Positions 49,328-55,119 of a stretch of DNA of 64,000 nucleotides are shown here, one piece after another. Position numbers and translations under genes: made by a program. Numbering within the stretch: the first letter of the stretch is position 1; each line of letters starts with the position of its first letter. The DNA is from Kiritimatiellia bacterium. GTDB lineage: Bacteria; Verrucomicrobiota; Kiritimatiellia; RFP12; DVOR01. The stretch covers positions 823,286 to 887,285 of the forward strand of contig JAFXKZ010000002.1 of NCBI GenBank assembly GCA_017531445.1. The letters run 5' to 3'. Below the pieces are notes generated by a model. That model searched no databases. It was given only the letters and a program-made list of their open reading frames with translations, and was not told the DNA's origin.

Positions 49328-52300
49328 TCAATACTCCGGCAGTTGCATCCTCTCCGGCACCATTTTCTTATCCTTCTTTCCGAGCACAAGGTAAAGCGCA
49401 GGAATGAAGTAGAGTGCCATCAGTGACGAGAGAATAATGCCGCCTACCGAGCCAATGCCGATAGAAGCGCGCATCTCCGACCCAAGCCCCGTGCCGGTTG
49501 CCATCGGCAACATACCGAACAAGGCCGCTACACACGACATGAGAATCGGACGGAACTTGCTCTTTGCCGCCCGTAACAACGCCGCCTGTTTGGAAATATT
49601 CCGGGCAGAACGCAGCATATTAACCTCATCAATCAGCAGAATTGCCGCATTCACTACCACACCTACCAGCATAATCCCGGCGAGCAAGCCAAACATTGAA
49701 AGACTGGTATTCGTGAGCCAAAGGGCGATATACAATCCCAGATAGGAGAAGGGCACCGTGAAGAGAATAATGAACGGTTGCGTCCACGATTCCATCAAAG
49801 CGCAAAGCAAAAGATACGTTAGCACAATGGCCACCACCGTTACAGTGCCGAATTCCGCGAACGTCTCGCCCATCATTTCTGCCATGCCGCCCACCGCAGA
49901 CGTGTAGCCTTCCGGCAGATGCCGACGGATGATTTCCGCCTCATTCATCAGTGCAGAACCCAGCCCATAGCCATTGGAAGCATTCGCATACAGCACTGCC
50001 GAACGACTCTTGTCATAACGCATGATCATTGTCGGCTGGAGATGTTCTTCAAGGGAGGTCACTGCCGACAAGGGCATCGGATTTCCATCTGTGCCGGGCA
50101 GATTCATCGCCTCAATCTGCGCTTCGCCCTCGCGTTGTGTAAAGCGTGCACGGATATCATAGGAGCGATCGCCGCGCTTATACGTCGTCTGCTCAATCCC
50201 GGCTACATTTGCTCTGAGCGTCTGCCCCAATCCTGTTGCGGGGAGCGAAAGGTCGTGCATCACCGCACGTTTCGGCAGAATCCGCACCTCCGGGCGTCCG
50301 GGACGGATCGAGTGGGCGATGTCCGTGCTCGCGGGGTCAGAGCGAAAGGCCTTGGCAATCTGAAGCCCCGCAGCATTCAAGACGTCCAAATCGTCACCGC
50401 AAATGAATTGTTGGATATCTTGTGAAGCACCGCCGGCCGCACTCGGAATCAATACCGAAGCGATGCAATCCGGCTCTTCCAGCAATTCCGAACGGAGCAC
50501 TTCGCGGATCACTGCCAACGGATGATTGGGGCGTTCAGTCATGGAGGTCAGGCGAAGATTGATTTCAGAGAGATACGTTCCCTCCGAAACTTGCCCGACA
50601 ACGCCTTGAACTTTTCCGCAATTCACGTTGATATGACAAATAGCAGGCTCGCGTTGACGCAAGCGTTCGGCGATGGCAAGCGTTCGCTCCACCGTCCGCC
50701 CCAAATTGCTGTCTGCGGCAAACTCCAGTTTTACAGTGATATCCCCCTGGTCGGTCGGCGGCACAAAGTCCATCTGCACCCGCCCCGGGAAAAACCAGAA
50801 GCCTGCCACCGTAGCTACCGTCACCGGCACAAGCAGAGCCCAGGGAGCCCGCGCCACCCATTTGATTGACCGCACATAACCGCTTTCCAACCGCTTGTAA
50901 CACCAATTCCAAGGCGTCAGCAATCGGGCAAGCAACGGGTTCAACCGGCGTTCCCCCCAGTGGACAGTCACCATCGCCAAAATCGGCGTCAGGGTAAACG
51001 AAATGAGCAACGAAGCAAACGTTGCCGCCGTAACCACCACGGCGAACGGCGCAAGAAAACGCCCGGCAATCGAAGACATCGTCGTAATCGGCAGGAAGAC
51101 CACAATATTCGTCAGCGCAGAGGCCGCCACAGCCAACGCCACGGCAGAGGTGGAACGTTCCACCGTATCGGCCGTATCAAACGGCACCCCTTTCTTCTTC
51201 TCAAAGGCGAGTGCGATATTCTCCAGCACCACAATTGAATTCGCCACAAGGATGCCCACCGAAATCCCTGCCGCCGACATGGTGATGATATTGAAGGTAT
51301 ATCCGAAGAACGGAAACACCATCATCGTAATCAGCATCGTCACCGGAATAGAGACGAAGGCTGCAAACGCCGTGCGGATATCCGCCAGAAAAAGAAGCAG
51401 CACCACGCCGGTCAGGAGCACTCCCTGCCATACAGAAGAAAAGCCGTCGCGCACGGTTGCATTGATATAATCGCCATCGTCCCGGAACCATATCAACGCC
51501 ATCCCCTCCGGCAACGTGCCTTTGATGCGTTCTGCCGCAGCCTGCACCGCCGCAACCACCGCCGCAGCATTGGCATCGCCCTTCTTCGTCACCTTTACTG
51601 TAACACACGGTTTCCCATCATAAAACGCCGCATTGGTTTTACGCTCCGTGCCGAATGAAAACTGCGCCACATCACGCAAATAGACGCGTTCACCACGCAC
51701 CGTCCCAAGCTCGATATCGCCCAAACCCGCAATCTCATCCGGCTCGGCATCAAAGGTCAAAGAGAGCTCACGCGTCCCGGCATCAATCTGCCCTACGGGG
51801 ATTTTTGCATTTCCCTCGCCGAGTGCGGCGAGCACATCATTCATGGAAAGACCGCGCACAGCCAATTTATCACGATCGACATCCACCAATACTTCGCGCT
51901 CCATCCCACCAATGAGATCCACGCTGGCCACACCCGGAAGCGACGAAAACTTGTCGGCCAATGTATCATCCGCATAGTCATACAAATCGTCAATGCTCTG
52001 CGTCCCCTGCAACACCATCGTCACCACTGCGGTGGCATTCACATCAAACTTCAAGATTTCCGGTTTGTCGGCTGCCGCAGGAAGATCCTCCAGAATCAGG
52101 TCGATTTTTTCCCGGACATCCGTCGCTGCAACATCCACATCGCGGTCAAGATTAAACTCTATCAGCACTTGCGTAAAATTGTTTAAGCAGGTGGACGTAA
52201 TGTGTTTGATCCCTTCCACCTGGGAAATCGCATCTTCAATCTTACGCGTTACCGAAGTTTCGAGTTCGTCCGGCGAGGCTCCTGCATACGTCACCGAGAT

Positions 52301-52438
52301 GGTCACGTACGGCACCTCTACCGTCGGTAACAAATCATTTCCGACATTTTTTAATGTCAGCAGCCCGAAAAACGAAAGCATGATAATGCACACGCTCATC
52401 GCAATCGGTCGTTTGGTTGAAGCTGAAGCCAAGAACAT
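49328..52438 (-). CDS. RND efflux transporter, AcrB/HAE1-type
   Basis: A 1036-residue inner-membrane pump of the TolC-adaptor-RND operon. N terminus SASTKRPIAMSVCIIMLSFFGLLTL and periplasmic parts are typical. In TM4 the aspartate pair needed for proton relay in AcrB (D407-D408) is replaced by A399-N400 (GISVGILVANSIVVLENI), and the TM10 lysine (K940) by asparagine (GVVVNAAILLIDEVN). Energy coupling may therefore differ. AAAGGGG precedes the ATG. Confidence 0.93.
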   Translation of the reverse strand: MFLASASTKRPIAMSVCIIMLSFFGLLTLKNVGNDLLPTVEVPYVTISVTYAGASPDELETSVTRKIEDAISQVEGIKHITSTCLNNFTQVLIEFNLDRDVDVAATDVREKIDLILEDLPAAADKPEILKFDVNATAVVTMVLQGTQSIDDLYDYADDTLADKFSSLPGVASVDLIGGMEREVLVDVDRDKLAVRGLSMNDVLAALGEGNAKIPVGQIDAGTRELSLTFDAEPDEIAGLGDIELGTVRGERVYLRDVAQFSFGTERKTNAAFYDGKPCVTVKVTKKGDANAAAVVAAVQAAAERIKGTLPEGMALIWFRDDGDYINATVRDGFSSVWQGVLLTGVVLLLFLADIRTAFAAFVSIPVTMLITMMVFPFFGYTFNIITMSAAGISVGILVANSIVVLENIALAFEKKKGVPFDTADTVERSTSAVALAVAASALTNIVVFLPITTMSSIAGRFLAPFAVVVTAATFASLLISFTLTPILAMVTVHWGERRLNPLLARLLTPWNWCYKRLESGYVRSIKWVARAPWALLVPVTVATVAGFWFFPGRVQMDFVPPTDQGDITVKLEFAADSNLGRTVERTLAIAERLRQREPAICHINVNCGKVQGVVGQVSEGTYLSEINLRLTSMTERPNHPLAVIREVLRSELLEEPDCIASVLIPSAAGGASQDIQQFICGDDLDVLNAAGLQIAKAFRSDPASTDIAHSIRPGRPEVRILPKRAVMHDLSLPATGLGQTLRANVAGIEQTTYKRGDRSYDIRARFTQREGEAQIEAMNLPGTDGNPMPLSAVTSLEEHLQPTMIMRYDKSRSAVLYANASNGYGLGSALMNEAEIIRRHLPEGYTSAVGGMAEMMGETFAEFGTVTVVAIVLTYLLLCALMESWTQPFIILFTVPFSYLGLYIALWLTNTSLSMFGLLAGIMLVGVVVNAAILLIDEVNMLRSARNISKQAALLRAAKSKFRPILMSCVAALFGMLPMATGTGLGSEMRASIGIGSVGGIILSSLMALYFIPALYLVLGKKDKKMVPERMQLPEY

Positions 52439-52472
52439 GACGCGCCCCTTTCGCAAGTTTTCGGCGGAAAAA

Positions 52473-53627
52473 TCAGCGAATCGCTTTTACTTCATCGCCG
52501 GGATTCAGCAGCAACATCCCCTCGGCAACGATTGCTGCCCCGGCAAGCGGCTCGGGATTACGCACCTCGGTCAATGCTCCGCACGTGCGGCCTTTCTCCA
52601 CCGGCACGGCTTCCACACGCCCGGCCTCTGTCACCACAAAGACGACTTGCCGCCCTTCCCGAAGCGCAACCGCACCGGAAGGCACCGCCGACCCCCGGCG
52701 GCGTTCAAAGATAATTTTCGCCTCACACAACATCCCCGGAGCCACCGTTTCATCTGCCTGGATCACTGCTCTCACTTCAAACGTCCGGCTCACCGGATTT
52801 ACCGTAGGCGCACGATAAGACACCACTAGCGTTTGCCCGAACGAGGTTTCCAGGCGCGTTTCTCCCACTTTCACCCGGGCATAGTTATCGGCATTCACCA
52901 TAAAACAGACCTCGCGAACCTCGGGATTCTCAATCTCAAAGATCGCCCCTCCCACCTCGGCATAGTCGCCGGCCTCTTGCAACTTCTTCGTCAACACCCC
53001 AGCAAACGGCGCAACGCCCTGCGAATCTGCGAGGTCTTTTTCTGCGATTCTGAGTGCCGTTGCCGCCTGAAGAATCTTCGCTTCTGCGGTTGCTACCGCC
53101 GCATTTGCCCGTGCGACCGTAGCGGTAGTGCTTTTCAGTTGCAGCTGTGCCTTTTCCCATACATCCTTGGTCACCGACCCGGAGACGGTATATAAACGCG
53201 CATAACGCGCCTCGTCAATCACGGCTTTTTCATGCGCGGCCATGGCCTCTTCGCGCACAGCAAGAGCCTCGTCACGCGCAGCCGCCGCCACAGCACAGTC
53301 GTCTTTCGCAATGGCCACACGGTTCTCCAGATTCACACGATCCACCTGAAAGAGCCTCTGCCCGGCCGCGACCGTCTCGCCTTCATCGGCGTAAAGCGTA
53401 TCAATCGTCCCGGGAAGACGCGATGCCACTGCAGCGGTGAACTTACTGCGCACGCTCCCCTGAACAATGATTGCCTCTTCAAACTCCACGCCTTCTGTCA
53501 GGCTGCAAACCTTCACCCGCGGACGCAAATCCACCGGCGAAGCGTTCGTCTCCGTCTCCGGTTCGCACCCACATGCCAACCAAACCACGCCCACGCTCAA
53601 AAGCATTTTCCCCAAGTGCCGTTTCAT
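52473..53627 (-). CDS. lipoprotein RND periplasmic adaptor (membrane fusion protein)
   Basis: Links the RND pump to TolC. A lipobox (GVVWLACGC) sits near residue 20; the biotinyl-lipoyl region (RLPGTIDTLYADEGETVAAGQRLFQVD), a helical hairpin, the beta-barrel, and the second lipoyl half follow. The start has AAGGAGG inside the end of the TolC gene, one base after its stop. The RND gene starts 34 bases downstream. Confidence 0.93.
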   Translation of the reverse strand: MKRHLGKMLLSVGVVWLACGCEPETETNASPVDLRPRVKVCSLTEGVEFEEAIIVQGSVRSKFTAAVASRLPGTIDTLYADEGETVAAGQRLFQVDRVNLENRVAIAKDDCAVAAAARDEALAVREEAMAAHEKAVIDEARYARLYTVSGSVTKDVWEKAQLQLKSTTATVARANAAVATAEAKILQAATALRIAEKDLADSQGVAPFAGVLTKKLQEAGDYAEVGGAIFEIENPEVREVCFMVNADNYARVKVGETRLETSFGQTLVVSYRAPTVNPVSRTFEVRAVIQADETVAPGMLCEAKIIFERRRGSAVPSGAVALREGRQVVFVVTEAGRVEAVPVEKGRTCGALTEVRNPEPLAGAAIVAEGMLLLNPGDEVKAIR

Positions 53628-53628
53628 T

Positions 53629-55119
53629 TTATTCCTCCTTTTTGTCCGGAGCTGCCGGAGTTTTGCACTCCCAGCCCAACCCGACTGTATCGCGGAAAAC
53701 CACCTCTGCCAGTGCATCTGCATACGCAGCTGAAACGGCATTCAAACGCGCCTGTTCGCGCAAGGCATACCTATCCAGCACATCACTCAATGTTTCCTGA
53801 TCCTGCTGATAACGCGCCATCGTCTCTTCATAATCAGCTTCAGCGGCCACTTTCGCCGCTTCTGCCACGGTTTTGCGTGCTTGTGCCTGCTGCAAATTCG
53901 TCCATGCCTGCCAAACAGAAACCATCAAAGCATTGGCCGCGTCCTCGCGCAATTGCACGGCGGCGGCACCTTTTTCTTTGGCTTTCAGGTAGTCGGCAAT
54001 CGAGTGGAAGCCATCAAATACCGACATTACTCCGCCGATTCCTCCGGTCAGATAACGATGCGGCACAGAGGCACTGTTGGAAGAATACGCCCCGCCTCCT
54101 GCTACAGAAAGCGTGGGCAAGAAGTTGGCCAACGCCGACAATGCCTCCACCTTGTGCAGCACAATTGCACGATCCGCCGCCCACAGTTCGCGACGATTCA
54201 CCAATGCCGCCCACAGCCATTCGGCCAGCGGCGTCTGCAAGGCTTCTGCGCGTGTCACCGGCACCGGCTGCCCCTCTGCACCTGTCAAAGCCCACGGCAA
54301 CCCGGCAATCTCCAAAAGAGACGCGCCTTCCAGAGGCGGCACGTCCTGCGACAGCGGATAGAAATTGAGCAGATCCAACAGATTGACCTTCGCCGCCCGG
54401 GCATTGTCCTGTGCCACACGCAAATTATAACGGTCGCTCTTCTGAAACGCTTCTGCCCGCAACACCTCGGCCTTCAACGCCATGCCTTCTTCCGCCAAAC
54501 GCTGCACCCGCTGCAGTAATTCTTCCGAAGCTTTGACTTGTGCCTCATAGGCTGCAATCATCTCTCCGGCAACGGCCGCATCGTAAAAGAGCGTCGCCAC
54601 CTGAATATCCAGCATCTGACGATTACGCTCGGCCACCAATTGTTGATAGGCACTGCCATGACGTGCCGCCACCCAGAGCAACCACGCATTCGGGGCAAAC
54701 ACCGGCTGACTGATGGTCAACCCCGCCTGCGTCACCCACTGATCCTGCATCTGCGCAGTGAGCCCCCCAAGCGCGTTCAGCCGCATTTTCAGCGGCCGGT
54801 TCGTGCCGCTGCGCTGATAAGTCGCCTCCACCTGAGGTAAAAAAGCCGAAAAAGCCGCCGTAGCGGAGAGTTGTGCCATGCGCACTTCCAATTCCGACTG
54901 CGTCAATTTCAGTGTTCGCGCCTGTGCCCACTCCCGGCACACCGAAAGCGTTAAAGGGGCCGTATTGGTGCGAAACCACGCCGCCGTTTCCTCCGGCTTT
55001 TCCAGCGCATACACTTGCGCCACCTCGACGCGCTCCTGCAATCCGGGCGCGCACCCCAAGAGCCCCAGCAGCACCACTGCCACACTACAACCGCTAATCC
55101 CGTTCACAATTCCTGTCAT
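53629..55119 (-). CDS. TolC-family outer-membrane efflux lipoprotein
   Basis: A 496-residue outer-membrane channel with a lipoprotein signal (LLGLLGC). Two OEP repeats are seen as long amphipathic helical stretches, from LSVCREWAQARTLKLTQSELEVRMAQLS and from LANFLPTLSVAGGGAYSS. It is first in the operon with the adaptor and RND genes. GAGG lies about eight bases before the ATG; a TTGACA-type promoter lies 40 bases upstream. Confidence 0.9.
   Translation of the reverse strand: MTGIVNGISGCSVAVVLLGLLGCAPGLQERVEVAQVYALEKPEETAAWFRTNTAPLTLSVCREWAQARTLKLTQSELEVRMAQLSATAAFSAFLPQVEATYQRSGTNRPLKMRLNALGGLTAQMQDQWVTQAGLTISQPVFAPNAWLLWVAARHGSAYQQLVAERNRQMLDIQVATLFYDAAVAGEMIAAYEAQVKASEELLQRVQRLAEEGMALKAEVLRAEAFQKSDRYNLRVAQDNARAAKVNLLDLLNFYPLSQDVPPLEGASLLEIAGLPWALTGAEGQPVPVTRAEALQTPLAEWLWAALVNRRELWAADRAIVLHKVEALSALANFLPTLSVAGGGAYSSNSASVPHRYLTGGIGGVMSVFDGFHSIADYLKAKEKGAAAVQLREDAANALMVSVWQAWTNLQQAQARKTVAEAAKVAAEADYEETMARYQQDQETLSDVLDRYALREQARLNAVSAAYADALAEVVFRDTVGLGWECKTPAAPDKKEE

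Follow-up and report, generated by a model that had tools for sequence, protein, structure and literature searches.

A Verrucomicrobiota subfamily of RND permeases with a neutral site in place of the proton relay and its possible coupling to a monovalent cation

Introduction

How can an RND permease be energized when the charged residues of its proton relay are absent? This question is raised by a gene found in a stretch of 64,000 nucleotides (hereafter, the window) from a Kiritimatiellia bacterium (GenBank assembly GCA_017531445.1, contig JAFXKZ010000002.1, positions 823,286 to 887,285 of the forward strand). A first-pass annotation had described the encoded permease as lacking the three charged relay residues of AcrB, had considered these residues essential for proton coupling, and had proposed that either coupling uses other residues or another ion, or the pump works differently. 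The statement on AcrB agrees with the published mutants: passages of PMC4359379 report that proton translocation and efflux are lost in each of the single mutants D407N, D408N, K940A and R971A, and parts of this paper and of PMC8277102 state that activity is abolished by substitution at D407, D408, K940 or R971. In a literature search that covered titles and the openings of abstracts, with subscription papers and preprints outside its scope, no account was found of RND permeases that naturally lack the TM4 acids.

Results

The permease gene ends at position 49328 on the minus strand, and the coordinates first assigned to it, 49328..52438, are right, because the ATG at 52438 has GAAAGGGG directly 5' to it; an alternative ORF of 1042 amino acids from a TTG at 52456 is a longer mechanical reading. 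The protein of 1036 amino acids matches PF00873 (ACR_tran, E = 1e-209) along residues 6-1019, corresponding to positions 4-1020 of the 1021 of the profile. Twelve NCBIfam models matched it, and the permease stayed under the curated cut-off of all 12, the best one being NF033617 with 591.7 bits vs a cut-off of 1250. Upstream of the permease lie the genes for a periplasmic adaptor (MFP; 52473..53627, minus strand; TIGR01730, E = 1.6e-32, above cut-off) and for a TolC-family outer membrane protein (53629..55119, minus strand; PF02321, E = 2.7e-27). The start of the adaptor was inferred to be the ATG at 53627 behind AAGGAGG, within an ORF that is open to 53741, and this start adjoins position 53629, where the TolC-family ORF ends. 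The three genes probably constitute one operon, read towards 49328, in which the adaptor and the outer membrane channel that characterize AcrB-type (HAE-1) systems are present; both ORFs are unbroken, as the first-pass annotation had it. Past the permease there is a convergent pseudouridine-synthase gene. The nearest named records in a peptide-seed search were Lentisphaeraceae and Kiritimatiellae assemblies, and a search of plasmid records gave 74 matches, all of them below 60% identity, the best among the matches listed having 30.3%.

The permease was aligned by MAFFT with the E. coli AcrB from NC_000913.3, in which D407, D408, K940, R971 and T978 were confirmed; ORFs shorter than 350 amino acids were left out of this comparison, and those shorter than 800 were left out of another set. 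D407-D408 turned out to be A399-N400 and K940 to be N930, as had been noticed initially, so that the charged relay of AcrB-type (HAE-1) permeases is absent. The core of TM4, S393 to E406, is encoded at 51221..51262 (minus strand), with A399-N400-S401 in the place of AcrB D407-D408-A409, and N930 of TM10 at 49649..49651 (minus strand). Two further changes were detected, one of them also in a residue of the AcrB type: R971 on TM11 is replaced by Lys (K961), and T978 by S968. Acids are kept at the positions of AcrB E414 (E406) and E947 (D937). Misalignment was ruled out, as no gaps occur in TM4 and TM5 about their invariant G, P and E positions, and phmmer, which aligned the permease with two solved RND chains through TM10, agrees with MAFFT.

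The neutral site is more general than this gene and represents a family-wide trait. All 10 other copies from the same genus with a readable TM4 have A-N. Six peptide seeds, none of them derived from the relay site, retrieved 57 named loci, and [A/T/S]-N was found in 51 of the 55 in which TM4 could be read, the four exceptions being L077 and L082 (D-D), L091 (D-S) and L081 (D-N). L081 is a family member with an in-frame stop inside TM4, which is either an assembly error or the mark of a pseudogene. The [A/T/S]-N version of TM4, searched for as a DNA pattern, was present in 100 of 387 genomes of the phylum. A profile built from 12 family members was also run on 145 phylum genomes, yielding 56 full-length matches with at least 965 bits, followed by a gap down to 760. 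TM4 was [T/S/A]-N in 53 of these 56 members, D-N in one (L270) and A-C in two (L271 and L272); 46 of them hold the DNA pattern (coordinates compared by eye), and the 10 others, once fetched, were T-N or A-N in seven cases, D-N in one and A-C in two. The ten matches that were read below the score gap all had D407, in the combinations D-N-N, D-S-N or D-D-K. A wider pattern was detected in 7 of 149 Synergistota genomes and in 12 of 149 from Planctomycetota, the latter figure being an upper bound because several matches are motifs from other helices; L127 (Synergistota) and L129 (Planctomycetota) are full family members outside Verrucomicrobiota. Victivallis vadensis DSM 14823 encodes two members, L041 and L126, with 42% and 45% identity to the window protein.

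Some variants were found along with these proteins. The paralogues L271 and L272, from a single genus and with one RND ORF each, combine the A-C version of TM4 with Ala at the K940 position and the lack of the TM5 Asn described below; judged by their residues, the whole polar site is gone in them. A further RND type, found in two same-genus genomes (L034 and L022), has D-A in TM4 and an Arg in the place of K940. In L178 (4223-8653, minus strand), a member is fused to a TolC-like channel domain within a single ORF of 1476 amino acids (PF00873 and PF02321), and genes for an adaptor and a TetR-type regulator are found 5' of it.

Could the missing charges be produced by a sequencing or alignment artefact, or by decay of the gene? 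The host genome, of 1.40 Mb, is around 50% complete, which leaves some room for such an explanation, but identical residues appear in independent genomes, the ORF is intact, the control with the reversed pattern was found in 0 of the 387 genomes, and selection on the permease is purifying, with seven genus-level pairs giving dN/dS values between 0.035 and 0.46 (saturation was reached in two wider pairs). Chance, assembly error and decay are refuted by the conservation along the family, and the probability left to them is negligible.

The history of the family was analyzed with FastTree, leaving out the columns of the site, in trees of 100 and 109 rows. In both trees, which are quick ones with long branches and many clade rows picked by their TM4 pattern (and with L272 taken into the larger one as a wrong-frame row), the family is a single clade with a support of 100, and the N-N-N proteins L224 and L225, both from one Synergistaceae genome, form its sister group, with supports of 99 and 98, D407-bearing proteins being placed around. 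N408 and N940 are thus common to D407-bearing relatives, and it is the loss of D407 that sets the group apart; of the three replacements in the first-pass annotation, D408N and K940N are therefore not special. A return to Asp seems possible, since L270, which has D407, is nested in the clade. The loss of the Asp and the gain of an Asn on TM5 may both go back to a single change in the ancestor of the two sister groups, and with such a single change being possible, there is no evidence for repeated evolution.

The residues that accompany the neutral site were identified by contrasting 31 clade representatives (30 neutral ones and L270) with 32 outgroup proteins, at less than 60% identity inside each set and with L222, L271 and L272 left out. 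Residues specific for the clade in the TM segments include G391, S393, N400 and S401 (TM4), N444 (TM5), T343 (TM2) and T894 (TM9), and 32 of the 247 TM columns, those of N400, N444 and N930 among them, are invariant in the 31 representatives. T343, at AcrB V351 (51410..51412, minus strand), is found in 87% of the clade representatives vs 9% outside, and T894, at AcrB V904 (49757..49759, minus strand), in 100% vs 19%. N444 (51107..51109, minus strand) corresponds to AcrB L449 through a gapless stretch anchored by P450/P455. Asn at this position is present in 30 of 30 neutral representatives vs 2 of 47 D407-bearing rows (L136 and L270), and also in the 28 distinct Synergistota proteins with Asn-Asn in TM4, namely L224, L225 and 26 of 30 further loci that were read (L329, L330 and L333 were matches to TM10, and L312 is the L224 gene, counted once). 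It is absent from L271 and L272 and from L222, a protein outside the clade with S-N-N and Thr at 449. Parts of PMC8749003 describe that, in AcrB bound to BDM88855, the piperazine is ringed by D407, D408, K940, L449 and the carbonyl of L404; as L449, which lines the relay site in this inhibitor complex, borders the cationic piperazine, the new Asn is located at the position of the cationic group of that complex.

Acidic residues in the same membrane plane of the subfamily had been named initially as the observation that would argue against a relay devoid of charges. A search by column in 58 clade rows, repeated in the 31 representatives, revealed no Asp or Glu that is conserved within the TM cores; the conserved acids are restricted to helix ends (E406, D937, and E854/E858/E862 before TM8), and a replacement acid in the cores was therefore ruled out. 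A pump that is still driven by protons would have to use a titratable pair off the membrane centre, such as E406-K961 (AcrB E414-R971), or else E854/E858/E862, where TM8 starts, and the proton or hydronium would be passed between through water and neutral side chains. E406 is found in 58 of the 58 clade rows and Lys961 (49556..49558, minus strand) in 46, and Glu or Asp occupies positions 854, 858 and 862 in 57, 58 and 56 of them, respectively. The F-type c subunit of the genus, which we take from its motif to be of the H+ type, is also in line with a proton route, as is the contact between R971 and E414 of AcrB mentioned in parts of PMC8277102. However, all these acids are at helix ends, E406 is no replacement because it is universal in RND proteins, E854 is not specific for the clade, the new Asn of TM5 is left unexplained, and the single relay substitutions reported in passages of PMC4359379 put an end to proton translocation by AcrB. 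Such a route is thus considered unlikely, although to be taken seriously.

The genomic context was examined in 99 family loci. In 98 of them an adaptor gene lies next to the permease, the sole exception being located at a contig end, and no second RND gene was found in any, with one RND match per locus, which rules out a mixed trimer formed with an RND protein encoded nearby. The AlphaFold model of the permease had a mean pLDDT of 82.5 and its best match in the PDB was AcrD, with a TM-score of 0.91, so that the permease has the RND fold according to the prediction. A family without the relay residues and yet under purifying selection has either a different mechanism or no role as a coupled pump. 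The second option would make of the protein a facilitator following the substrate gradient, a silent subunit of a mixed RND trimer or a sensor with RND fold. The inactivity of the charge-neutral relay mutants of AcrB (in the passages cited from PMC4359379), the loss of the polar cluster in L271 and L272, and the presence in the host genome of a second full-length RND protein with the canonical D-D-K residues (L001) are in favor of an uncoupled protein, but L001 aligns at 24% identity only, no second RND gene exists in the 99 loci, the operon with the adaptor is kept in 98 of them, and N400, N444 and N930 would not be expected to be invariant if the site had no function. We judge the absence of ion coupling to be improbable.

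Neutral sites rich in oxygen suit Na+, as in LeuT, and among RND pumps there is a precedent for Na+ coupling in VexEF, as stated in parts of PMC8875612. The presence of Rnf/Nqr genes in the hosts was compared with that of the pump. They were detected in 40 of 51 pump-bearing genomes vs 36 of 94 others (Fisher p = 4e-6), and by family in 12 of 13 vs 14 of 30 (p = 0.006), both comparisons being confounded by ancestry; the pump-bearing count included G117 and G145, partial members by pattern, and not G114, a partial match without the pattern. The only pump-bearing family without Rnf/Nqr is that of the window itself, and none of these genes was found in the 17 genomes of its genus. Moreover, Rnf can move H+. 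A V-type ATPase c subunit (L299-L308), which from its ligands we presume to be more likely of the Na+ type, is encoded in 10 of the 17 genus genomes, namely in 6 of the 6 without the neutral-site pump and in 4 of the 11 with it. Both the absence of Rnf/Nqr in the genus and this pattern of the V-type c subunit, which goes the wrong way, count against Na+, and the Na+ bioenergetics of the genus was dropped as a support. The F-type c subunit, with its apparent H+ type, is a further point against Na+. The evidence from the hosts is mixed.

Discussion

The permease belongs, as judged from sequence comparison, to an unnamed RND subfamily with a neutral relay site. We propose that it is part of a functional tripartite pump in which a neutral site, most likely serving Na+, has arisen from the proton relay, a reading that we regard as quite possible though somewhat short of probable. 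The relay would have been rebuilt with [T/S/A]399, N400 and S401 from TM4, N444 from TM5, S476 from TM6 and N930 from TM10. The pump would most likely follow the same functional rotation as AcrB, except that the TM repeats would be switched not by aspartate protonation but by a small monovalent cation that is bound and released (most likely Na+, on uncharged oxygen ligands), the substrate presumably being a drug-like or toxic compound. Coupling to a cation at the neutral site is put ahead of the alternative proton route and of no coupling, and is nevertheless proposed tentatively. Still a little more doubtful is the general form of the proposal, that a broad RND subfamily of Verrucomicrobiota, also represented in Planctomycetota and Synergistota and lacking any conserved intramembrane acid, drives tripartite efflux by Na+ or another monovalent cation at a neutral Asn/Thr/Ser site evolved from the relay. 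Two of the 56 members, L271 and L272, in which the Asn cluster is lost too, count against the neutral-site reading, and so do L222, with S-N-N but Thr at 449, and the possible single origin of the Asp loss and Asn gain.

The choice offered by the first-pass annotation stands in a narrower form, in which another ion or a neutral-site mechanism is favored over decay, given the substitutions fixed along the family and the new neutral polar residues at the site. The conservation of a natural family without the relay charges suggests that selection can maintain the RND machine without a titratable central residue. It also offers a natural experiment on how the choice of the coupling ion is written in RND sequences, position 407 vs position 449, and the question is testable, since the cultured Victivallis vadensis carries members of the family.

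Compared with known systems, the window permease shares with AcrB and AcrD (HAE-1, PF00873) the fold, as judged from the TM-score to AcrD, the 12-TM RND architecture, the operon with adaptor and TolC-family protein, and the acids at 414 and 947; it differs from them in the absence of D407, D408, K940 and R971, in the Asn of TM5 at the position of L449, and in an overall identity of around 23%. VexEF of Vibrio cholerae would be similar through the proposed reading, as an RND pump reported to be Na+-dependent in parts of PMC8875612, a likeness that concerns the coupling ion. The RND permeases with D407-N408-N940 (e.g., L274, L279 and L282), the nearest D407-bearing type below the score gap, share N408, N940 and the acid at 947, whereas they retain D407, R971 and T978 and have Thr instead of Asn at 449. 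The N-N-N permeases of Synergistota (L224, L225 and L309-L338 less three), sister of the clade, coincide with it in the lack of a TM4 acid, in N408 and N449, in S401 (Thr in one row) and in T351 (Cys in one row), and are distinguished by Asn at 407, by Ala 399 and Thr 446 in the place of the Gly and Ala of the clade, and, in the two full rows, by Arg instead of Lys at 971.
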